This document shows, in pieces, positions 49,758 through 64,000 of a stretch of 64,000 nucleotides of DNA. The translations under genes and the position numbers were made by a program. Numbering within the stretch: position 1 is the first letter of the stretch; every line of letters starts with the position of its first letter. The notes beneath the pieces were generated by a model, which was given only the letters and a program-made list of their open reading frames with translations, searched no databases and had not been told where the DNA came from. The stretch covers positions 1 to 64,000 of the forward strand of contig CALKJW010000008.1 of NCBI GenBank assembly GCA_937995595.1. The letters run 5' to 3'. The DNA comes from an uncultured Phycisphaerales bacterium. GTDB taxonomy: Bacteria; Planctomycetota; Phycisphaerae; Phycisphaerales; UBA1924.

Positions 49758-52148
49758 ATGAAGCACACGACCCCGGGCACGTGCGGGTGGCGGCGTTGGA
49801 CCCTTGGGCTGGCCGTCGCGGCGGCTGCTTCGATGGCGCTTTCGGGCGCCGCGCACGCGCTGGACGGCCCCGGCCCGCAACAGGCCGCGGCCGAGCAGGG
49901 CGGGAGCGAAGCCCGACGGTTTGACGGCTACAGGGCCGTGCGCGTGCGGTTCGGCTCGACCCGCGAGTACCTGGCGGCGATGGCGCTGGCCGAGACGACG
50001 TGGTCGTGCGAGGCCCGCGGCGACGTCGTGGACCTGGTCGTTTCGCCCGAGAACCTCGGCGCGCTGCGCGACCTGGGGATCGAGCACGCGGTGCTGGTCG
50101 AGAACGTGCAGGCGCTGATCGACGCCGAGCGGGCGCAGATCGAGCGCACCAACGCGCTGCGCGGCGGTGGGTACTTCGACACGTTCCGGACGTACGAGGA
50201 GGTGAACGCGCGGATCGACCTGCTGCTGCAGAACCACCCCGGCGTGGTCGCCGACGCGCCGGTGGGCACGTCGCGGTTTGCCCGCGCGATCCGCGGCTTT
50301 GCCGTCTCGGCGCCGGACTCGCCGGGCAACCCGCGCGACCAGCGCGTGCAGGTGCTCTTCAACGGCACGCAGCACGCGCGCGAGTGGATCAGCCCGACGA
50401 CGGTGATGTTCATCGCCGACCGGCTGCTGGCCGACTACAGCGCGGGCGACCCGCGCGTGGTCGCGCTGCTCCAGCGCGCCGAGGTGATCTTCGTCCCGAT
50501 CGTGAACCCGGACGGGTACGTGTTCAGTTGGACCACCAACCGCATGTGGCGCAAGACGCGCACGAACAACGGCAACGGCACGTTCGGCGTTGATCCGAAC
50601 CGCAACTGGGGCTACGAGTGGGGCGGCGAGGGCTCGAGCGGCAACAGCGGCAGCGAGACGTACCGCGGGCCGTCGCCGTTCAGCGAGCCCGAGACCGCCG
50701 CGCTGCGCGACTTCATCGTCGCCCGCCCGCGGATCGCCGCGCACATCGACTTCCACAGTTACGGGCAGTTGATCCTCTCGCCGTGGGGCTACACGTCGGC
50801 GCTGCCGCCCGAGCCTGCGCAGTCGGTCTTTGTGCGGCTCAACGGGGACATGGCGCGGGAGGTCCGGTCCGAGACCGGGATGACGTACGTCGGCGGCCCG
50901 GCGTACACGACGATCTACCCCGCCGCGGGCACGATCCCCGACTGGGTCTTCGGCGACCAGAACCGCCTGAGTTGGACCATCGAACTGCGCGACGCGGGGG
51001 CCAACGGGTTTGTGCTGACGGCGGACCAGATCGAGCCGACGGGGCGCGAGGCGTACCGCGCGGTCCTGACGCTCCTGGATTACGTCGCGCTGCCGCTGCG
51101 GTTCACGTTCCCCGACGGGCTGCCCTCGGTCGTCGAGGAGGGCCAGACGACGGACGTGCTGGTGGTGATCGACTCGAACACGCGGACGGTGAACGCCTCG
51201 ACCGCCGTGCTGCTGTGGCGCACGTCGCCGGGCGCGACGCCGAACCAGACGCCGCTGGCGCCGCTGGGCGCGGACCGATTCCTCGCGACGCTGCCCGCGG
51301 GCGCGTGCGGCGGCGCGGTGGAGTTCGCCTTCCGTGCGCAGAACGACGCGGGAGAGTGGTCGGCCTTCCCGATCGACGCGCCGGCCTCGCTGCTGTCGTC
51401 CGACGTTGTCAAGACGCTCGTGAGCATGCGCGACCCGTGCGAGGTGAACCTGGGCTGGACCGTCGGCGCGCCGACCGACACGGCGACCACGGGCATCTGG
51501 GAACTGGCCGAACCGCAGCAGACCGCGGCCCAGCCGGGGCAGGACGTCTCGCCCGACGGCACGCGGTGCTGGATCACCGGTGCCGCGGCGGGCTCGGGCG
51601 TGGGCTCGTTCGACGTCGACGGCGGCGCGACGACGCTGACCAGTTACGCGTTCAGCGCGGTCGACCCCGGCGGCGCGCCGGTGCAGTCGGCGGTGCTGTC
51701 GTACTACCTCTGGTATTCCAACGACCGCGGGGCCAACCCCGCGCAGGACCCGTTCTACGTCTTCATCTCCAACGACGACGGGCAGACGTGGATGCCGCTG
51801 CAGGTCATCCCCGCCAACGGCAGCACCAACGCGTGGGTCCGGTTCGACTTCGAACTCGTCGGGTTGATCGAACCGACCGACCGGATGCGCGTGCGCTTCG
51901 TCGCCGACGACGCGGGCGCTGGCTCGATCGTCGAGGCCGCGGTGGACGAACTCACGCTCGTGGTGCGCGGGTGCCCGCCCGCGCCCTGCGCGGCGGACTT
52001 TGACGGGCAGAACGGCGTGGACGTGGGCGATATCTTCGCCTTCCTTGCGGCGTGGTTCGCCGGGCAGTCGGGCGCGTACGACTTCGGCGGCACGCCGGGC
52101 GTGCCGGCGATCTTCGCGTTCCTGTCGGCGTGGTTCGCGGGGTGCTGA
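49758..52148 (+). CDS. Secreted M14 zinc carboxypeptidase with C-terminal dockerin-like motifs
   Basis: This is a 796-residue exported enzyme with a signal (LAVAAAASMALSGAAHA) and a propeptide-like part (about 50-135). The M14 catalytic domain (about 140-450) has zinc ligands in QHAREW (about 206) and HIDFHSYGQ (about 330), substrate-binding VDPNRNWGYEWGG, and the catalytic Glu in TIELRDAG (about 409). A beta-sandwich region follows. The end holds one good dockerin-like module, ADFDGQNGVDVGDIFAFLAA, and a degenerate second one, DFGGTPGVPAIFAFLSAW, that has lost acidic metal ligands. It probably digests peptides at the cell surface. It ends 16 bases before convergent galK. Confidence 0.93.
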   Translation: MKHTTPGTCGWRRWTLGLAVAAAASMALSGAAHALDGPGPQQAAAEQGGSEARRFDGYRAVRVRFGSTREYLAAMALAETTWSCEARGDVVDLVVSPENLGALRDLGIEHAVLVENVQALIDAERAQIERTNALRGGGYFDTFRTYEEVNARIDLLLQNHPGVVADAPVGTSRFARAIRGFAVSAPDSPGNPRDQRVQVLFNGTQHAREWISPTTVMFIADRLLADYSAGDPRVVALLQRAEVIFVPIVNPDGYVFSWTTNRMWRKTRTNNGNGTFGVDPNRNWGYEWGGEGSSGNSGSETYRGPSPFSEPETAALRDFIVARPRIAAHIDFHSYGQLILSPWGYTSALPPEPAQSVFVRLNGDMAREVRSETGMTYVGGPAYTTIYPAAGTIPDWVFGDQNRLSWTIELRDAGANGFVLTADQIEPTGREAYRAVLTLLDYVALPLRFTFPDGLPSVVEEGQTTDVLVVIDSNTRTVNASTAVLLWRTSPGATPNQTPLAPLGADRFLATLPAGACGGAVEFAFRAQNDAGEWSAFPIDAPASLLSSDVVKTLVSMRDPCEVNLGWTVGAPTDTATTGIWELAEPQQTAAQPGQDVSPDGTRCWITGAAAGSGVGSFDVDGGATTLTSYAFSAVDPGGAPVQSAVLSYYLWYSNDRGANPAQDPFYVFISNDDGQTWMPLQVIPANGSTNAWVRFDFELVGLIEPTDRMRVRFVADDAGAGSIVEAAVDELTLVVRGCPPAPCAADFDGQNGVDVGDIFAFLAAWFAGQSGAYDFGGTPGVPAIFAFLSAWFAGC

Positions 52149-53384: not shown

Positions 53385-56300
53385 TCAGTTCACGGCCATC
53401 GCCGAGCCGCGGATCACCGCCTCGAACTGCTGGATGGTGGTGATGCCGCGCGGCCGCACGGGCGCGAGGAGGACGTTCTTGGACAGCGCCAGTTCGCGCT
53501 CGGTCAGGCCGATGAGTTCCAGGCGGCGGATGAACCCGGCGAGTTCCTCGATGTACCCGCGGCTCTGCGCCTCGGACTCGTTGGTGTCGAGGAACTCGCG
53601 GAAGCGCACCGGGTCGATGCTGGTGGTGCCGGGGTTGGCCGCGAGGAAGCGGCGGACCGACTGGTAGAGCGTTTCCTGGATCTCCGACGCGCGGGAGACG
53701 CGCCGGACCTTGCCGGCCTCGTCGAGCACGGGGTTGCCGTCGTCGTCGACCAGGTCGCGGTTGAACAGCGCGTCGTAGTCGCGGAGCAGGCGCGTGACCT
53801 GATCCCCGGGCAGGCGGTTGACGGCGGTGGTGTAGCCCTGCGCGCCCGGGCCGCCGGCGGGGTAGTCGTTGTAGAGGCCCCAGCCGACGAGCAGTTGGAG
53901 CAGTTCGGGCAGTTCGAGCGTGCGTGGGATGATGCCCAGTTGGCGGAGGTCCTCGATCTGGGCCTGGCCGACGGTCGGGTTCTCGCCCACGTCGTTGAAG
54001 CGTGTCTCGCGCGGGATCGCGCCGGCCAGCGCGTCGGAGACGTTGGTGTTGGTGGGGCCCTGCGCGCGGAGGTCGAGCGTGACGATGTTGGGCGCGGTGC
54101 CGGCGTTGAGCATCGAGGGCATGACGGGGCCGAACGCCTGGAAGAGGAACGAGACGAGGTTGCCGTTGGCGTCGCCGGTGCCGTCGGGCGTGGCGAACGA
54201 CACGGCCCGCGTGCCGATGCGCGTGGGCACGACCGAGAAGGCGAACCGCCCGCCGGAGACGAAGTCCAGCCCGGCGTCGAGCCCGATGGTGTTGTTCGGC
54301 CCGAGGATGGTGCCCGGCAGGCGGGTGTTGAGCGCGATGCTCGACGCGTTGACGTTCACGTCTCCCAGCGCGGTGATGTCGCCCAGGACGGCCGTCGCGG
54401 CGTTGATCGTCACCGTTCCGGCGACGGTCAGTTTCTCGTTGCGGCCCATGTGGAACGCGCCGTCGGTGTTGAACGTGATCGAGAACGGCGAGGTCGGCGC
54501 GGTGACGATCTGGCCGCTGGCGTTGCGCGGGCGGGCGATGATGGTCGCGATGCGGGCGGTGTTCACGCGCCCGTCGATGCCCAGTCCCTCGTCGAAGTTG
54601 AACAGGAGGTGCCGCAGCGCCTTGGAGCCGCCGACGTCGCGCGCGAAACTCACGATGGGCAGCGCGTTGTCGCCGGGCAGGTTGTTGTTCCGCCACAGCA
54701 GCAGCAGGCCCGCGTTCTGGCCGGCGGCGGCGTCGAGCGTGCCGTTGAAGAAGATGCCCGTGCCGCCCGAGTCGGTCAGCGTGACGTCGCGCAGCAGGCG
54801 GACCGAGTCGTTGAAGGTCATGGTGCCGCCGGAGGTGGTGATGTCGGCGCCGATGCGGGTGACGCCGTCGGCGTTGGTCGTCAGCGCGGCCAGCGGGCGG
54901 TCGCCGCCGCCGACGCGGCCCTCGAAGAGGGTCACGCCGTTGTTGGCGGTGTTGACGGTGAGCGAGCGGGCGGTGGAGGTCTGCGAGCGGACGGTGCCGC
55001 GGAAGCGGACGTTGTTGCCCGAGACCACGGCGTTCTGGGCCAGCCGCACGTTGCCGTTGAAGTTCACGTCGTGGGTGTTGGAGGCGGCGACGTCGTCGGA
55101 GAGGACGACGGCGTCGAGCCCGTCGGCCATGCCGTCGGCGTTGGGGTTGAAGTTCAGGTCGCCGGTCTGGGTCGCGACGCGCGAGAGGACGCGGATGCCG
55201 TTGTCGGCGAAGACGTCCAGGGCGTTGAAGGTGGAGGCCGCGCCGCTGAACTCGACCTGCCCGCCGTTGGCCAGCGCCTCGAGCGTGACGGGCCCGGCGA
55301 TGGAACTGACGTTGGCCGTGGTGATCCCGCCGACGGTGATGCGCGTGGTGCGGTCGCCGCCGATGACCAGCCCGGTGGCGGTGATGCGCTGGAGCGCGGC
55401 GGAGTTGATGTTCATGTCGCCGCCGGTGGCGGTGCCCAGCGCGATGGTGCCGCTGGTCGATCGGCGGATGCGCGTCTGGCCGGCGCCCGAGTTGAGGCTG
55501 CCGTCGAGTTGGATCGTCGAGGCGGTGATGGTCAGCGACGAGTTGGCCGAGGAGAGCGTCGAGCCGGTCGCGAGCGTGAACCCGCCGCCGTTGTTGTCGG
55601 TGTCGGCGTTCATCACGACCGCGCCGTCAACGGCCAGCGTGTTGAGGATCGAGATGCCGTTGGCGGCGCGGAGCGTGAGCGGGCCCGCGGCGGACATGTT
55701 GCCGCCCGAGGCCGCCAGCGAGATCGAGCCGGCGGAGGTGAGCGTGCGGTTGGCCGCGAAGAGGATGTTGTTGGGCCCGTCGCCGCCGACGTTGGCGTCG
55801 CCGTTGAGGGCGAGGTTGCCGCGGTCGGTGGTGATGTTGGCGTTGACGCGGATGCCCTTGTCGGCGTTGGCCTCCAGCGCGTTGAAGGTCGAGGCGCCGG
55901 CGTTGAAGGTGATCAGGTCGTTGGAGCGGAGCGTGAGGACGCCGGAGATGCCGTCGCTGGCCGCGGCGGAGACGGCCGAGACGGTGATCGCCCCCGTTGG
56001 GCCGCCGCCGATGCGCATGTTGGTGCAGGAGATGCGGCCCAGTTCGTCGTTGTCGATGGTCAGGTCGCCGGTGGCGTTGCCCAGGCCGATGGTGCCGGCG
56101 GCGTTGCGGCGGATGACGAGGTTGCGCGCCGAGACGTTGAACGGCCCGTCGATGTCGATGTCGCCGGTGATGAGTTCGAGTTCGGCCTGTATGCCGGCGG
56201 TCGCCGCGGAGGTGACGTTGCCGATGTTGATCTGGTTCACCGTGCTCCCGCCGATGCGGAGGGCCTCGGCGGAGATGCGCGAGAGTTCGTCGGAGGTGAG

Positions 56301-59300
56301 TTCCATGTCGCCGGTCGCGCCGCCCAGGCCGACGCTGCCGGCGGTGGAGCGGAAGATGAACACCTCGCCGCCGACGGTCGAGAGCGAGCCGGCCAGGTCG
56401 ATGTCCGCGGCGGTGACGCGGATGTCGTTGCCGCCGCTGGCGCTGACGGTCGCGCCCATGCCGACGGTGAGCGTGCCGACGCCGTCGTCGTCGGTGTCGG
56501 CGTCGATGCGGAGCTCGCCGTCGCTGGCGTTGACGCTCTGGTTGATCGTGATCCCGTTGTTGGCCTCGAGGACGACCTGCGCGCCCGCGGCCGAGCCGTT
56601 GAGAGTCAGCGCGCCGCCGGCCAGCAGGTTGAGCACGCCGGGGGTGTTGACGGCGTGGTTGATCGTCAGGTCGTTGAGCGAGTCGATGGTCAGGTCCGAC
56701 TCGCCGACGATGCCGCCGGTGAAGGCCGAGAGGACGATGCTCCCGCCGCCGGGGCGCGTGGTGATCAGCACGCCGGTGCCGATGACGATGTTGTCCAGCG
56801 TGTCGGCGGCGTTGTCGAAGTCTCCGTTGAGGACCAGGTCGCCCGCGTCGGTCGTGAGGTCGGCCTGCACGTCGATGCCGTCGTCGGCGTTGACGGTCAG
56901 CGCGTTGAAGACCGACGCGCCGCCGCTGAAGACCGCGCGCGCGCCGTTGCCGGTCGCGTCGATGACGAACTCGCCGATGTTGTCGGTCTGCGCGGCGGTC
57001 AGGCCGTCGGTGGTGATGAGCGTCGCGTTGGCGCCGCCGACCGAGAGGACCGCGGCGGTGATCCGCGAGATCTCGTTGCCGTCGATGGTCAGGTCGCCGG
57101 TGGCGTTGCCCAGGCCGATGGTGCCGGGCGAGGCGATCTCGATGGCGGTGTTGCCCGCGCCGCTGTCGAGGTTGCCGCGGAGGTCGAGGTCGCCGACGGT
57201 GAGCGAGAGCGGGTGGCCCGTCGTGGAGATGGTGACGCCGGTGTCGACCGAGAGCGTGCCGCCGCAGATGATGCTCGTGCCCATCGCGCCCGCCGAGGCG
57301 AGGCTGGTGAACACGTCGATGTTGTTGCCGGCGTTGAACTGGAACGAATCGGCCGAGACCGTGCCGCGGACGGCCATGTTGCCGCCGGCGTTCATCGTCA
57401 GCACGGTCGCGGCGGAGACGGACGAACTGGCGTTCAGGTCGATGCTGCCGCCGTCGAAGGGGCCGCCCGAACTCATCGCGTCGGCGTCGGCGGTGATGGT
57501 GATTGCGCCGGCCGACGAGGCCAGCGAGCCGGTAGCGCCGAGCGTGAAGTCGTTGTCGGCCGCGAGCGAGATGTCGGCGTCGGCGGCGATCGCGGCGTTG
57601 ACGGTCATGTTGCCGCCGTCGCCGCCGGCGGCGCTCAGGCGCACCGCGCCGGTGCCGGAGGCGTTGACGGCGAAGTTGACGGTCAGGCTTCCGGCGGCGG
57701 TGACCTGGATGTCCTCGTTGGCGGCGACGGTGATGCCGGTGACGCCGAGCAGGTCGGCGATGCGGACGTCGCCCTCGTTGAACAGCAGGAACGGGCCGGC
57801 GGCGACGTCGGCCGAGATGCGGCGCAGGTTGGTGCGGATGTCCACGCCGCCGGAGGTCTCGAAGACCGCCGAGCCGTTGATGCCGCCGATCGTCAGGTCG
57901 GTGCTCGTGCCGGAGCCGAGCACCGCGCCGGTGACGAAGTGCGCAAAGGCGTTGTCGGCGAGGGTGATGCCGTTGAAGAAGGCCACCTGCCCGCCTCGGA
58001 GGTTGAGCCGGTTGAACCCGCCCGACGAGAGGTCGATCGCGCCGTCGTTGCCGATGAACAGGTCGCCGGCGGTGGCGGAGCCGATGGTGAGCGTGCCGTT
58101 GCTCTGGAGGAGGGCGAGTTCGGCCAGCGAGAGCGAGACGCCCGCGCCGCCGCCGCCGATGTGGAAGTCGGTCCCCGCGTTGAGGTTCACCAGCGTGACG
58201 GCGTTGTCGCCGCGGAGCGTGCCGGAGATGTCGAAGTCGTCGGCGGTGAGCGTGAGGTCGCCGGTGGTCTCGGCCGAACTCACCGCGAGCGTGCCCATCG
58301 AAACGATGTTGACGTTGCCCGCGCCGACGTCGGAGTCGTCGCCCAGGCGCGAGCGGGCCTCGACCGCGCCCTGGAAGGCGTTGAGCGGGTCGGCAAGGAG
58401 AATCTCGCCGCCGGCGCCGTTCGCGGCGACAATCGTCGACGTGCCGGTCACCACCAGGGCGCCCCCCTGCGTGATGTCGCCGCCCGTCGCGCGTGCCTCG
58501 AGGTTGCCGCCGATGGTCGCAGGGCCGAGGTGGATCCCGCCGTTGGCCGTGGTGATCGAGGCGTCGTTGATGATGTTCAGCCCGGTCGGGCCCTGGCCCT
58601 CGTAGGACCCGCCGGCGACGACGGTGAGCGAGCCCGCCGAGACCGCGCCGAGCGTCACGGGCCCGCCGACCAGCACGTCGATCACGCCCGTGCCCGCGGC
58701 GATGGTCGAGGTCGCGTCGGCCGAGAGGCCCATGCCGCGGACGATCAGGTCGCCGCCGAAGGTGTCGATCGTGACGCCGACGGCGATGGAGACCGACCCC
58801 TGCATCGGTTCGGGGTCGTCGTTGCCGCTGGTGGAGTCGTTGGCGAGCAGTTCGACGGTCAGCAGGCCGGAGGTCGAGATGATGTCGGCGTTGACGTTGA
58901 CGTCGTTGGCGGCGCGGAGGGTCAGCGTCGCGTCGCCGCCGGCGGACTTGTTGATCGCGGCGTTGACGTTGATGTCGCCGTCCTGCGCGCCGGTGTTGCC
59001 GGTGAGGATCTGGACGTTGGTGCCGCCGTCGAGGGCCGATTCGATGTCGCTCACGTCCACGACGGCGTCGTCGGCGTTGGGCGTGAAGGTGTCGGGGTTG
59101 CCGGCGTCGAACGAGCCGCCGGTGGACGCGGCGTTGTCGATGGTCACGTTGCGCGGGTCGAGCAGCCAGACGCCGCCCTTGCCGCCCTCGGCGCGTGCCG
59201 CGGCCGAGACGCGCGCCCCGCGGACGTCGAGCGTCTCCTTGCCGGAGGTCTCGATCAGGCCGCCGTCGCCGGCGGTCGCGCCGCCGCGGGCGCTGGCCGC

Positions 59301-60431
59301 GCCGTAGAAGCCGGTGTGGCCGTCGGACCAGACGATGACGCGTCCGCCGTCGCCGGACACCAGCGCGTCGGCGCGGATGTCGGCCTCGCGCGAGACGATG
59401 GTGGTCTCGGCGGTGCGGAGCGTGCCGCCGCCCTGCAGTTCGCCGCCGATGTGGACGGCGCCGCCGCCGCTCCTGCCCGAGGCGTCGATGCGGGCATCGG
59501 TGACGTGGACGCGCCGGCCGGTGATCTCGACGGTGCCGCCGCGGTCGCCGGGCGCGGCGTTGCGCGCGTCGATCGTGCCGCCGACCTTGACCATCGCGTC
59601 GCCATGGCCCTCGATGGTGGTGTGGCGCGCCTGCACGCGCCCGGTGTTGTTGACCGCCAGCGAGTACATGTCGCCGGCGACCATGAGCGCGCGGCCGCGC
59701 CGGGCGGAGACCTGCCCGCTGTTCTCGACGGCGGTCCCCTGCTGCTGGGCTCCCTCGGACCGGGCCATGCCCTCGACGCGCACGGAGAAGTTGGACCCGC
59801 GCTCCTGCAGGACCACGTCCTCGCCGGCGACCATCGCGACCACGCCCTTGTCGGCGGCGATGACGCCGCGGTTGGCGACCTCGCGCCCGATGAGCGCGGC
59901 GACGCCGCCGTCGGCGGCGCGGATGGTCCCCTCGTTGACGACCGGGCCGACCAGGCCGGTGAAGCGGTTGACGTTGTTGATGAAGTCGCGGTCGGTGATG
60001 CTGCCGGCGGCGGCGTAGAGGCCGCCGACGTCGACCACGGCGCCGTTGCCGAACATGACGCCGGCGGGGTTGACGAAGTAGACGGCGCCGTTGGCGCGGA
60101 GGACGCCGTCGATGCGCGTGGGGGCCTCGCCGGAGATGCGGTTGAGCACGCGGGCCGAGGCGTCGGGCTGGATGAACCGCACGCGCTCGCCGGCGGCGAT
60201 GTTGAACCGGTCGTAGTTGATGATCGCGCCGTCGGTGGCGCGGATGCGCGTGATGTTGCCGTTCTGGCGGATGCTCGCGTCGCCGCGGACCACCTTGGCG
60301 CCCTCGGGCCCGGCCATGGCCGGCCCGGCCAGCAGCAGCGCGACGCCCGCGCCGACGAACGCGAACCGACCGAGGGACAGACCGATGACCCCACCACGAC
60401 CGACGGGGCGCGCGTGACCTTGCGTGTACAT
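53385..60431 (-). CDS. Filamentous-haemagglutinin-like exoprotein, TpsA of a two-partner secretion system
   Basis: This is a 2348-residue secreted giant. ATG 60431 is preceded by AGGAG, which excludes the longer start at 60470. The signal is FAFVGAGVALLLAGPAMAG. Residues about 35-160 are the TPS secretion domain (ITRIRATDGAIINYDRFNIA, VLNRISGEAPTRIDG, AVYFVNPAGVMFGNG). The bulk is a repetitive beta-helix; five modules around [ST]IxLGxATGD...RI recur near 780, 1110, 1370, 1452 and 1667. Further repeats have STFNALxxxAD. The last 350 residues are a non-repetitive helical region (LELPELLQLLVGWGLYNDYP, ETLYQSVRRFLAANPGTTSI). It is preceded by tpsB. Likely a surface adhesin or an outer-layer protein; its target is not visible. 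Confidence 0.92.
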   Translation of the reverse strand: MYTQGHARPVGRGGVIGLSLGRFAFVGAGVALLLAGPAMAGPEGAKVVRGDASIRQNGNITRIRATDGAIINYDRFNIAAGERVRFIQPDASARVLNRISGEAPTRIDGVLRANGAVYFVNPAGVMFGNGAVVDVGGLYAAAGSITDRDFINNVNRFTGLVGPVVNEGTIRAADGGVAALIGREVANRGVIAADKGVVAMVAGEDVVLQERGSNFSVRVEGMARSEGAQQQGTAVENSGQVSARRGRALMVAGDMYSLAVNNTGRVQARHTTIEGHGDAMVKVGGTIDARNAAPGDRGGTVEITGRRVHVTDARIDASGRSGGGAVHIGGELQGGGTLRTAETTIVSREADIRADALVSGDGGRVIVWSDGHTGFYGAASARGGATAGDGGLIETSGKETLDVRGARVSAAARAEGGKGGVWLLDPRNVTIDNAASTGGSFDAGNPDTFTPNADDAVVDVSDIESALDGGTNVQILTGNTGAQDGDINVNAAINKSAGGDATLTLRAANDVNVNADIISTSGLLTVELLANDSTSGNDDPEPMQGSVSIAVGVTIDTFGGDLIVRGMGLSADATSTIAAGTGVIDVLVGGPVTLGAVSAGSLTVVAGGSYEGQGPTGLNIINDASITTANGGIHLGPATIGGNLEARATGGDITQGGALVVTGTSTIVAANGAGGEILLADPLNAFQGAVEARSRLGDDSDVGAGNVNIVSMGTLAVSSAETTGDLTLTADDFDISGTLRGDNAVTLVNLNAGTDFHIGGGGAGVSLSLAELALLQSNGTLTIGSATAGDLFIGNDGAIDLSSGGFNRLNLRGGQVAFFNGITLADNAFAHFVTGAVLGSGTSTDLTIGGINGSAVFETSGGVDIRTNLRRISADVAAGPFLLFNEGDVRIADLLGVTGITVAANEDIQVTAAGSLTVNFAVNASGTGAVRLSAAGGDGGNMTVNAAIAADADISLAADNDFTLGATGSLASSAGAITITADADAMSSGGPFDGGSIDLNASSSVSAATVLTMNAGGNMAVRGTVSADSFQFNAGNNIDVFTSLASAGAMGTSIICGGTLSVDTGVTISTTGHPLSLTVGDLDLRGNLDSGAGNTAIEIASPGTIGLGNATGDLTIDGNEISRITAAVLSVGGANATLITTDGLTAAQTDNIGEFVIDATGNGARAVFSGGASVFNALTVNADDGIDVQADLTTDAGDLVLNGDFDNAADTLDNIVIGTGVLITTRPGGGSIVLSAFTGGIVGESDLTIDSLNDLTINHAVNTPGVLNLLAGGALTLNGSAAGAQVVLEANNGITINQSVNASDGELRIDADTDDDGVGTLTVGMGATVSASGGNDIRVTAADIDLAGSLSTVGGEVFIFRSTAGSVGLGGATGDMELTSDELSRISAEALRIGGSTVNQINIGNVTSAATAGIQAELELITGDIDIDGPFNVSARNLVIRRNAAGTIGLGNATGDLTIDNDELGRISCTNMRIGGGPTGAITVSAVSAAASDGISGVLTLRSNDLITFNAGASTFNALEANADKGIRVNANITTDRGNLALNGDANVGGDGPNNILFAANRTLTSAGSISLAASGGNMSAAGPLTLRAANGISILNTLAVDGAVVMNADTDNNGGGFTLATGSTLSSANSSLTITASTIQLDGSLNSGAGQTRIRRSTSGTIALGTATGGDMNINSAALQRITATGLVIGGDRTTRITVGGITTANVSSIAGPVTLEALANGGQVEFSGAASTFNALDVFADNGIRVLSRVATQTGDLNFNPNADGMADGLDAVVLSDDVAASNTHDVNFNGNVRLAQNAVVSGNNVRFRGTVRSQTSTARSLTVNTANNGVTLFEGRVGGGDRPLAALTTNADGVTRIGADITTSGGTMTFNDSVRLLRDVTLTDSGGTGIFFNGTLDAAAGQNAGLLLLWRNNNLPGDNALPIVSFARDVGGSKALRHLLFNFDEGLGIDGRVNTARIATIIARPRNASGQIVTAPTSPFSITFNTDGAFHMGRNEKLTVAGTVTINAATAVLGDITALGDVNVNASSIALNTRLPGTILGPNNTIGLDAGLDFVSGGRFAFSVVPTRIGTRAVSFATPDGTGDANGNLVSFLFQAFGPVMPSMLNAGTAPNIVTLDLRAQGPTNTNVSDALAGAIPRETRFNDVGENPTVGQAQIEDLRQLGIIPRTLELPELLQLLVGWGLYNDYPAGGPGAQGYTTAVNRLPGDQVTRLLRDYDALFNRDLVDDDGNPVLDEAGKVRRVSRASEIQETLYQSVRRFLAANPGTTSIDPVRFREFLDTNESEAQSRGYIEELAGFIRRLELIGLTERELALSKNVLLAPVRPRGITTIQQFEAVIRGSAMAVN

Positions 60432-60639
60432 CCGAATCTCCTGTCGTGCTTCCGGCGTGCGAGCGTCCATGCCGCCCCCCTGCCATCCCCGACCCGCCCC
60501 GGCCGCGCCCTGTGTGGGCGTCGGCCCCCGGGCTTGTCGCCTCGCGGCCGCGCTTGGGGGCCGGGCGTCGGGGTTCGCGCTCGCAGGGGGCTATGCGAGC
60601 GCCGGGGCTTCCGGGTTCCGCGGAGTGCGCGGCCCGGTG
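60432..60639 (-). other. Gap between tpsB and tpsA
   Basis: This 208-base region carries the AGGAG site of tpsA. It is GC-rich with several short inverted repeats, such as GCCCCCGG/CCGGGGGC-type segments, but no clear terminator with T-run. tpsA may be read from the tpsB promoter or from its own. Confidence 0.4.
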
Positions 60640-62691
60640 TCAGAACAGAATCGTGCCGACAAAGTGCAAGCGGTTATCGCCCGCGTCGGCCTTGTTCTCG
60701 ATCTCGTCGAGCACAAAGCCCCAGTCCAGGCGGAGGGTCAGGTTCCGGCGGAAGAGGAACTCGACGCCGACACCGGCGCCGATGAGCGTCTCGTCGCTCT
60801 CGAAACTCTTGCGGTCCGAGTTGATGGTCCGCCCGATGTCGAAGAAGCCCTTGAGCACCAGGTCCCAGTCGGCCCGGCCGTAGGGCTGCTGCGGCCGGTA
60901 GCGGAACGGCTTGCCCCAGAACTCGCCGGGGTTGGGGTCAAAGCCCAGGGCCTGCGGCAGGTGGAAGCGGTACTCGGCGCTGGCGACGACCACCGTGTCG
61001 CCGGCCACCACCGACTCGTCGTACCCGCGGACCGTGTACATGCCGCCGACCACCTGCTCGAAGTTGGGGATCAGGCGGTGGTCGAAGGCGTGCTGCCCGC
61101 GGCAGGACAGGGCGATCTCGTGGGCCAGCGTGGGCATGCCGCCGGGGCCGGTGTCCTCCCAGCGGCTGCGGAAGAAGACCGGCTCGAGATAGAACGAGTG
61201 CGACAGGTCCCAGCGGAAGGTGTACCAGTCGTCGTCGGGGTCGAGGCGGCCCAGCCGGTCCAGGTCGTTCTTGTCGGTGTCGGCGATGGAGGGAACGTTG
61301 AACTCCACGCCCACCTCCAGGCGCGTCGAGGCGATCTCGGTCACCCGGTCGAGCCGGACGCCGACGGAGGGGATGAAGAAGTTGTTCTCGCCCTTGATGT
61401 CGACGGAGGTGTTGTTGACCTCGATGCGTTCGTAGCGCGCGCCCAGGACGACGTCGACAAACGTCTCGGCCCGCTGGAAGACGTTGATCGCCGACTCGAC
61501 GCCGATCGACCAACTGTCGCCCTCGAAGGTCTCGCTGGCGAAGCCCACGTCCGACGCCTCGTAGGTGCTCCACGAGGCGAAGGGCCGCAGGCGGATCCAG
61601 TCGCCGACGATCGGGAAGTCGTACGACGCGACGACCGCGTGCGAGGAATCGAACCCGGCGGTCACGTAGTCGATGCTGAGGATGTCGTCGTTGTTGGTGA
61701 GCTGGTTGTGCACAAAGCCGAAGCGCTCGCGCCACTCCGAGGTCTGCTCGGTGCCGGTGTTGCTGATCTGGAAGTACACCAGCCACGGCTTGTTCTCGGT
61801 GACGAGGAAGTCCAGCGCGGCGGTGCCGGGCTCGGCGCCGACGGCCAGCGCGACGTCGACGCGCCGGCCGGGGTGGCGGTTGAGGCGGAAGACGTACTGG
61901 TCGAGCAGGTCCTTGCGGAGCAGGTCGCGGCGGGTCTGGTCGTCGGGCGAGTAGGGCGCGACGGGCGCGTTCTCGCGGATGCGCCGGTGCAGCGGGTTGT
62001 TGATGCGCTCCTCGAAGGGCACGCGCTCGCCCGAGGCCAGCGTGCGCACCTCCGACACCACGCCGGCGCGGATGATGAGCGTGAGCGTCGTCTGCCCCGG
62101 CCGGCGCAGGTCCCTGCCCCACTCCGGGTCCTCGTCGCCGCCGGGCTCGAACTCGCGCTCCGACGGGCTGACCGTCACGCCGATGATGCCGAAGGCGTTC
62201 ATCTCCTCGACGACCGCGCGCTGCACCGCGGCGAGGGCGCGCGACGAGTACCGCATCGCGGGCTGGAGCGGGATGTCCATCAGCGACAGCGTGACCGTCT
62301 CGACGCCGCCGCCGGGCGCGACGTAGCCGTCGTCGGTCAGGCCGAGCGTCACCTGGGCCTGCAGCAGGTCGTCGATCGACGGGAAGCCGGGGTGCGGGCG
62401 CTCGAACTCCAGCAGGAACACGCCGACGAGGAACGAGGGCTTCTCGGTGTCGGCGCCGGCGTCCTCCGCCCCGCCGCGCAGACGGGCGCCGTCCGCGGCG
62501 GGCGGGGCGACGCGCGGCTGGCCGGGCGCGGGCTCGCCGGGCGACTGGCCGGGCTGGGTCTGCGCCGACGCGGGGGCGCACAACCCCGCGGCCAGACCCG
62601 CCACCGCGACCAACGCACACACCATGGAAAAGCTTCGTCCCTGCCGACGGCTCGACACCGCCGACGGCCAACGCCCAGACTGCTCGCGCAT
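60640..62691 (-). CDS. BamA/FhaC-type outer-membrane transporter, TpsB of a two-partner secretion system
   Basis: This is a 683-residue protein with a signal (SMVCALVAVAGLAAGLCAPA). The N-terminal third has POTRA-like sections (MRYSSRALAAVQRAVVEEMN with GVTVSP; DQYVFRLNRHPGRRVDVALA). The barrel spans about 290-683 with strand pairs such as ENKPWLVYFQISNTGTEQTS. The conserved loop-6 motif is VRGYDESV (about 554), as in Omp85 proteins, and the last strands end in a terminal aromatic Phe. TpsB proteins export the TpsA exoprotein through the barrel. The tpsA gene follows, 208 bases downstream on the same strand. ATG 62691 has AGGAGG 4 bases upstream. Confidence 0.92.
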   Translation of the reverse strand: MREQSGRWPSAVSSRRQGRSFSMVCALVAVAGLAAGLCAPASAQTQPGQSPGEPAPGQPRVAPPAADGARLRGGAEDAGADTEKPSFLVGVFLLEFERPHPGFPSIDDLLQAQVTLGLTDDGYVAPGGGVETVTLSLMDIPLQPAMRYSSRALAAVQRAVVEEMNAFGIIGVTVSPSEREFEPGGDEDPEWGRDLRRPGQTTLTLIIRAGVVSEVRTLASGERVPFEERINNPLHRRIRENAPVAPYSPDDQTRRDLLRKDLLDQYVFRLNRHPGRRVDVALAVGAEPGTAALDFLVTENKPWLVYFQISNTGTEQTSEWRERFGFVHNQLTNNDDILSIDYVTAGFDSSHAVVASYDFPIVGDWIRLRPFASWSTYEASDVGFASETFEGDSWSIGVESAINVFQRAETFVDVVLGARYERIEVNNTSVDIKGENNFFIPSVGVRLDRVTEIASTRLEVGVEFNVPSIADTDKNDLDRLGRLDPDDDWYTFRWDLSHSFYLEPVFFRSRWEDTGPGGMPTLAHEIALSCRGQHAFDHRLIPNFEQVVGGMYTVRGYDESVVAGDTVVVASAEYRFHLPQALGFDPNPGEFWGKPFRYRPQQPYGRADWDLVLKGFFDIGRTINSDRKSFESDETLIGAGVGVEFLFRRNLTLRLDWGFVLDEIENKADAGDNRLHFVGTILF

Positions 62692-62804
62692 GCCGCCTCC
62701 TGCTTTCGCGCCGGCCGAACACTGCGGCTCGGCACGCACATCACCCGTGCGCGGCCGCGCTCCGCGGGCCGTCCACGCTCCGAGTGGACCACATATTCGG
62801 CGAC

Positions 62805-62854: not shown

Positions 62855-64000
62855 CTATCGCGGCTTGAGGTAGGGTGTGGGCGTCAGCGCGCGCTGCACG
62901 GCGCGGGCGACGCCGTCGTCCCTCGGCAGGTCCGGCGCCGAGAACGCCAAGCGGAAACCCACGTCCGCGTACCCCTCGCCCGCGTCGATCGGGTCTATCT
63001 CGTACGGGACGAACGGGTCGATCTGCAGGTGCGACAGCGCGGACGACCCGATCACGCGCAGTTGTTGCGCGTGGCCCTTGGCTCTTTGAATGGCCTGCGC
63101 GGGGTTCTGGGGTGCCGGCCATACGTCGGTCGTGACCAACTCTGCGACATTCCCCAGAATATGTGGTGCGTCATCCTGAAGCCCCGCGCCGGCGGGCGCG
63201 AAGAACAGCCAACCGTCGTCCCACCGGAGCGCTTCGCCGCATTCGAACGCGAAGGGGAAACCTTGCGGGATGAACGCCCCGGCCGCGGCTGGTTCGACCA
63301 ATCGTCCCGACGCCGCCTTGGCGGCGATGTGGTCGCGGTAGCGCGCCCAGCGTGCGTCGCGCAGGTTTGTGCGGCCGGGCAGCACCTCGGGTTCCAGCGC
63401 GCGGGCCAGCGCGGTCCACTCGGCGACTGTCGGCAGGCGGCAGTTCAGCAGCGAGGCGATGTACGCCGCGGCGGCGGGCCGGACGTGCTGCATCGGCGAA
63501 TCGGGCCCGGGCTTGGCGGGCGCCTGGCCGGGCGGGTAGTCGGCGCCGGCGAGGATCGCGGCGGGGGAGAGCCAACTGGGCGCGGGCTGAACGACGGGGA
63601 GTCCGTGCGCATCGGCGCCCCAGACCCATGAGCGAGGACCGGCGCGGGTGTCGTTGAGCGGCGTGAAGTGCGGCTGCACCTCGACGAGGGCACGCTCCGC
63701 GCCGCGCGCGGCGACGATCGCGCCCACCTGACCGACGGTGACCTCGTGCGTGGTGACGAACGCGTCGCCTGAATCGGCCGAGACGCGGACGAACTCGACG
63801 CTCACGCCGCCCGCGCCGTTGGCACCGGGGAGCGTGAAGAGCACGCGCCCGTCGCGCTCGACGGCCTGCAGGCCGACGCCCGCGGGGCCGTGGAGGTTGG
63901 GGTCTGCTTGCGCTGCGCCGGGCTGGGCGCCGTCGGCGATGGCTTCGAGCGTCCGCACGGTGGGGAGCGAGCCGGCGAGGTAGCCGACGCCGCCGGGGAG
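62855..64000 (-). CDS. SUMF1/formylglycine-generating-enzyme-fold protein, C-terminal part, 5' end outside window
   Basis: The frame is open through the window edge (LPGGVGYLAGSLPTVRTLEA at the visible N-terminus), with about 381 residues present. A SUMF1-type domain starts near HEVTVGQVGAIV, which corresponds to the family EVTNAQY motif. It continues with LLNCRLPTVAEWTALARALE (LPTEAEWE) and NVAELVTTDVW (GNVWEWT), and ends with DVGFRLAF (VGFRL). The active-site cysteine region (typically RGGSW...C) is missing, so this is probably a non-enzymatic binding or substrate protein. The upstream domain may be a kinase or a signal-bearing region. It is 163 bases upstream of tpsB on the same strand. 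Confidence 0.75.
   Translation of the reverse strand, partial: LPGGVGYLAGSLPTVRTLEAIADGAQPGAAQADPNLHGPAGVGLQAVERDGRVLFTLPGANGAGGVSVEFVRVSADSGDAFVTTHEVTVGQVGAIVAARGAERALVEVQPHFTPLNDTRAGPRSWVWGADAHGLPVVQPAPSWLSPAAILAGADYPPGQAPAKPGPDSPMQHVRPAAAAYIASLLNCRLPTVAEWTALARALEPEVLPGRTNLRDARWARYRDHIAAKAASGRLVEPAAAGAFIPQGFPFAFECGEALRWDDGWLFFAPAGAGLQDDAPHILGNVAELVTTDVWPAPQNPAQAIQRAKGHAQQLRVIGSSALSHLQIDPFVPYEIDPIDAGEGYADVGFRLAFSAPDLPRDDGVARAVQRALTPTPYLKPR

Follow-up and report, generated by a model that had tools for sequence, protein, structure and literature searches.

A two-partner secretion pair as a constant element of T6SS-derived loci in Phycisphaerales

Known two-partner secretion (TPS, type Vb) systems such as EtpA/EtpB, HMW1A/HMW1B and FhaB/FhaC consist of a transporter (TpsB) and an exoprotein (TpsA), which in HMW1 ends in a disulphide-bonded cysteine loop and in filamentous haemagglutinin (FHA) in a prodomain. 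Here we describe a pair of this type, tpsB-tpsA, in a stretch of 64,000 nucleotides (the window) from contig CALKJW010000008.1 of an uncultured Phycisphaerales bacterium (genome G000; 96% complete, 3.1 Mb, 55 contigs). It resembles the described systems in the position of tpsB upstream of tpsA, the TPS secretion domain, the ShlB/FhaC-type barrel and the long β-helical exoprotein. Unlike HMW1 and FHA, however, the Phycisphaerales TpsA ends in a cysteine-free, helical C-terminal domain (CTD), and the genes lie within a type VI secretion system (T6SS) cluster. With the H1-T6SS of Pseudomonas aeruginosa, a system with threonine-phosphorylation regulators (TssLM, TagF, TagR), the locus shares TssL, TssM, TagF and FGE-domain proteins, and its relatives also a full contractile tail, but here a TPS pair stands between tagF and tssA, and the genus of the window is devoid of tail genes. 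While the pair alone is of a familiar kind, its place within T6SS clusters, and its survival there with the membrane complex after the tail has been lost, appears to be new.

The pair is a genuine type Vb system, encoded by neighbouring genes on one strand both in the window and in relatives. Gene calls and matches to the TPS and ShlB families bear out the initial annotation at its stated coordinates, with both genes on the minus strand; its case had been made to depend on two points, a recognisable TPS domain in the exoprotein and a barrel closer to FhaC than to BamA. The TPS domain matches PF05860 (E = 1.1e-23) and adhes_NPXG in NCBIfam (3.4e-18), and TpsA residues 44-577 align with the structure of EtpA (PDB 8vba, E = 4.6e-64); TpsA also aligns with the secretion domain of the HMW1-type adhesin (PDB 2odl, E = 2e-33). 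TpsB matches the ShlB/FhaC family (PF03865, E = 2.6e-12) better than Omp85 (PF01103, 4e-4) and carries the VRGY loop motif at residue 570; its AlphaFold2 (AF2) model, of low confidence (mean pLDDT 49), shows N-terminal β-α-β regions of POTRA-like fold and then about 18 β-strands, to be set beside the two POTRA domains and 16-stranded barrel expected of a type Vb transporter. G000 holds exactly one TPS and exactly one ShlB match, and TpsB is predicted to secrete TpsA. The length of 2348 residues given initially for TpsA holds from the second methionine, at 60431; the open frame from 60470 to 53385 gives 2361. In a comparison with G589 (Phycisphaeraceae ACE_PLA19, contig JAHBXL010000006.1), a second genome of the same genus that carries the same locus, pairwise dN/dS is 0.13 for TpsB and 0.22 for the whole of TpsA, whose repeat region (0.24) evolves faster than either the TPS domain (0.14) or the CTD (0.10, the lowest value within the protein). 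The only cysteines of TpsA are Cys1069 and Cys1482, and no C-terminal cysteine loop of the HMW1 type was found in it. Among other TpsBs, those of L057 (5602-8394, minus strand), L061 and L047 carry the N-terminal POTRA-like module (model positions 1-117) 2 or 3 times over, and a related TPS pair, with a TpsB 43-45% identical, is found in a metagenome-assembled genome labelled Myxococcales (L048), possibly through a binning error or transfer; a search of viral contigs with TpsB gave no match.

CdiA/CdiB is likewise a TPS-type pair. Unlike CdiA, however, the Phycisphaerales TpsA has no VENN motif, and its C-terminus is conserved instead of being a polymorphic toxin followed by an immunity gene. 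As the next gene, moreover, is galK (TIGR00131, 4e-83), we rejected a contact-dependent inhibition toxin. The GTG start of galK does lie 14 bases past the tpsA stop, as first noted, but galK adjoins tpsA only in G000 and G589 and is therefore not part of the system.

The T6SS-derived surroundings of the pair escaped the initial annotation because the cluster starts at the right edge of the window. They are most complete in tail-bearing relatives (G368, G545, G438, G095), where tpsB-tpsA is placed between tagF and tssA in the order lipoprotein, FGE protein, p308, tssK, tssL, tssM, tagF, tpsB, tpsA, tssA, tssB, tssC, (hcp), tagJ, tssE, tssF, clpV. Pfam matches in these clusters include VipA (9e-59), ImpE (9e-48), gp25 (7e-22), DotU (1e-23) and ImpA_N (3e-25), and further T6SS matches in relatives are TssK (2.7e-66), Hcp (5e-24) and TssF (8e-235). 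Profile searches for the TPS domain, the CTD, TssM and the sheath protein VipB in 301 Phycisphaerales genomes found TssM in 70, among them all 51 with VipB. A TPS domain is present in 69 of these 70 (Fisher p 7e-22), and the remaining one has a CTD. In the 68 TssM surroundings that were fetched for comparison, TssM and TpsB share one stretch in 56, and six of the 12 exceptions are short stretches that stop at a contig edge. The pair is thus a constant element of T6SS-derived loci in this order. Our literature search, outside which most subscription journals lay, found no report of a TPS pair as a standing component of T6SS clusters.

That TpsA is an ordinary stand-alone adhesin, a neighbour of T6SS genes by chance, would fit the 91 of 160 TPS genomes of the order in which TssM is absent, and TPS is therefore able to work alone. 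Chance would nonetheless have to account for a TPS domain or CTD in every one of the 70 TssM genomes, for a tagF-tpsB-tpsA order kept across many genera, for tpsBA remaining with TssLM after tail loss, and for related arrangements in another class (G145, where a CTD protein is followed by tssA-tssB-tssC, VipB 3e-134) and in another order of the same class (G311, clpV-tpsA-tpsB-tagF, with TagF recognised by our own profile only), which makes it quite unlikely.

In 19 genomes of the order, that of the window among them, TssM is present and VipB absent. Their loci retain only lipoprotein/FGE/p308, tssL, tssM, tagF, tpsB and tpsA, and TssK, found at 45 of 47 TssL-holding stretches in tail-bearing genomes, occurs at none of the 19 in tail-less ones, a comparison that is independent of genome completeness; among the assemblies, G525 consists of one contig and G420 of four. 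Genome-wide searches covered VipB, TssK, Hcp and TssF in the genus of the window, and VipB in the remaining tail-less genomes. None of the four was found in G000 or G589, and the same searches detect them in G368. The genome of the window thus holds the membrane complex genes for TssM and TssL, but with sheath TssC, Hcp, TssK and TssF absent from its genus, we do not class its locus as a T6SS. On quick trees, the tail state requires 7 changes for TssM, at least 6 of them forced by well-supported branches, and the tail-less group requires 8 for TpsB, at least 5 of them forced. Parallel tail loss from one conserved arrangement is a simpler explanation than repeated insertions at two fixed points.

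The absence of the sheath from 19 genomes and of TssK from all 19 loci could also mean that what is left at the tail-less loci is the decaying residue of a T6SS. In the genus of the window, to which the selection evidence is limited, the retained frames are nevertheless intact and under purifying selection (dN/dS 0.10-0.25; TssM 0.23, TagF 0.20, TssL 0.16), and the identical gene set has been retained after repeated independent losses, so that decay, already disfavoured, is highly improbable. A TssL value of 0.60, which had suggested fast evolution, came from a frame taken too long; the corrected value is the one given above. The joint retention of TssLM and TpsB would also fit a role of TpsB, the CTD or both as the outer-membrane dock of the Tss membrane complex, with TssLM-TpsB forming one trans-envelope channel. 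As a lipoprotein gene persists at the expected place of TssJ in several loci, and unlinked TpsBs function without TssM, we regard such docking as very unlikely.

The initial annotation had described the last 350 residues of TpsA as non-repetitive and helical and had suggested a search for them in other genomes. The helical character stands, the extent does not: the predicted helical part spans about residues 2143-2354, some 210 residues. In the AF2 model of the last 240 residues (mean pLDDT 69), most of fragment residues 101-230 score 76-94 and are nearly all helical. In profile searches, homologues turned up close to or at the very C-terminal end of TpsAs from the same order and from three genomes of other classes. 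Order-wide, the CTD is found in 142 of 301 genomes and the TPS domain in 160, with both in 136 where 75 would be expected, and the two persist as opposite ends of proteins whose open frames range from 553 (G440) to 11,087 residues (G404). As the CTD matches nothing in Pfam above cut-off and, in PDB profile searches, only unrelated proteins (E >= 0.02), with a best Foldseek E of 0.8 and a best VIA-align Z of 4.3, possibly reached by chance for helical bundles, we rejected its assignment to a known family; it is a conserved TpsA domain new to Pfam and PDB. Of the two roles initially offered for the helical end, functional tip or anchor, an anchor or export-stop fits better than a variable tip, because the CTD is tied to the secretion domain and evolves more slowly than the repeats.

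The extremes of TpsA architecture deserve separate mention. Frames of 11,087 (G404:C12, about 36573-69596) and 11,068 residues (G473:C135, 25870-58860) have the TPS domain at one end and the CTD at the other, while mini-TpsAs of 553-616 residues (L151, L152, L153, L154, L159) consist of TPS domain, short linker and CTD, without long repeats; the linker of L152 resembles a dockerin-type calcium motif. Stand-alone CTD genes, apparent in a first survey, proved mostly to be contig ends, leaving one real case, a signal-peptide protein of 318 residues (L148:8517-9470, plus strand) that has the CTD without a TPS domain and is encoded between tpsB and a mini-tpsA. TpsAs of another group (class family f8; L068, L070, L071, L072) end in a different conserved, cysteine-bearing domain (CP..M, PC.AC), a pattern which suggests that a helical C-terminal end is general among planctomycete TpsAs.

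We propose that TpsA is an anchored surface filament that works alongside the T6SS membrane complex, as a contact adhesin where the tail is present and as a separate, TssLM-coupled adhesin module where it is not, and we put the probability of this at about one half. TpsB would pass TpsA, as a long β-solenoid filament, across the outer membrane with the N-terminus leading, and the helical CTD would exit last, fold in the periplasm or on the cell surface and hold the filament to the cell. The filament would then grip neighbouring cells or surfaces, while the inner-membrane complex of TssL and TssM, together with TagF and the FGE-domain protein or proteins, would share the site, in presumed physical contact with TpsBA, probably sensing the filament under load, or bracing it, across the envelope. 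Where a tail is present, the contact adhesin would share both expression and location with the T6SS harpoon; in the genus of the window and several other lineages, sheath, tube, baseplate, TssK, ClpV and TssA have been lost, and the membrane complex and TPS adhesin would have been kept as a working unit. There is precedent for a contact factor linked to a T6SS: in Vibrio fischeri, the T6SS-associated surface factor TasL promotes the cell contact for T6SS killing (PMC9040878); the analogy is functional only, as TasL is a large predicted lipoprotein and not a TPS exoprotein. Only tentatively would we go further and see in TssL-TssM-TagF-TpsB-TpsA a new trans-envelope machine, in which a tail-free T6SS membrane complex has been repurposed to display, brace or gate a TPS filament.

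Several observations weigh against the proposed anchored filament and its coupling to the membrane complex. Two genomes among the 12 exceptions mentioned above (G408, G596) have clusters of divergent T6SS types without tpsBA. In 76 of the 142 genomes with a CTD there is no TssM, on which the CTD thus cannot depend, so that CTD anchoring would be a general feature to which coupling to TssLM has been added. Of the five AF2 models of the CTD, built from an alignment of two close sequences, a single one is confident. The TagF matches fall under the curated cut-offs in Pfam and NCBIfam alike, with no support for this identity from PDB profile searches, and the lipoprotein is not demonstrable as TssJ, PDB profiles again giving no support.

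The filament might instead act mainly as a sensor, its tension or binding being relayed via a periplasmic FGE part to TagF, which would control TssLM and, where present, the tail, with the TPS system as a substitute for the TagQRST trigger. In Pseudomonas, the envelope sensors TagQ-TagR and TssM anchoring are required for contact-triggered T6SS assembly, TagR acting upstream of it (PMC6657622), and TagF and an FGE domain form a single frame in 31 related genomes and adjacent separate genes in the genus of the window. With no kinase or phosphatase identified at the locus, a weak FGE match (4e-6) and the retention of TssLM without a tail left unexplained by sensing alone, we consider a primarily sensory role unlikely. 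Within the anchored adhesin that we favour, the FGE-domain and TagF proteins may still read the state of the filament.

The features of the locus are collected in Table 1. The TssM copy of the congener matches TIGR03348 with 1.5e-81, the scores for TIGR03348 and TIGR03349 both lying under the curated cut-offs. Elsewhere in the window (49758-52148, plus strand) lies the gene of an M14 zinc carboxypeptidase whose C-terminus weakly resembles a GC-type dockerin, with a score below cut-off.

Table 1. Features of the tpsB-tpsA locus, in window positions except where given for the contig.
Feature	Position	Strand	Basis or remarks
tpsA, TPS exoprotein	53385..60470	-	2361 aa; 2348 aa from ATG 60431
Conserved helical end of TpsA (CTD)	53388..54044	-	AF2 model; homologues in 142/301 order genomes
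TpsA repetitive β-type region	54045..59229	-	DUF5649 repeat (PF18886 1.3e-11) near residues 636-704
N-terminal TPS domain of TpsA with NPAG motif, residues ~54-286	59613..60311	-	PF05860 1.1e-23; EtpA structures
tpsB, FhaC/ShlB-type transporter	60640..62739	-	GTG 62739 gives 699 aa, ATG 62691 gives 683 aa
FGE-sulfatase-domain protein (TagR-like domain type), cut by window edge	62855..64000; contig 62855-65116	-	PF03781 4e-6
tagF	contig 65120-66121, beyond window	-	Pfam 2e-4, NCBIfam 4e-4
tssM	contig ~66125-70400, beyond window	-	IcmF-related_N 2.6e-56
tssL	contig ~70372-71067, beyond window	-	DotU TIGR03349 2e-11
p308, conserved gene	upstream of tssL, beyond window	-	gene order
Second FGE-domain protein	contig 72104-76519, beyond window	-	domain match
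Small lipoprotein	contig 76523-77083, beyond window	-	gene order

Taken as part of this locus, the pair gives a functional context to planctomycete FHA-like genes, which so far had no clear role. If pair and T6SS cooperate, this would explain how a free-living bacterium holds its target long enough for a contact-dependent weapon, and repeated tail loss, with TssLM-TpsBA kept, raises the testable question of whether the T6SS membrane complex has a job of its own.

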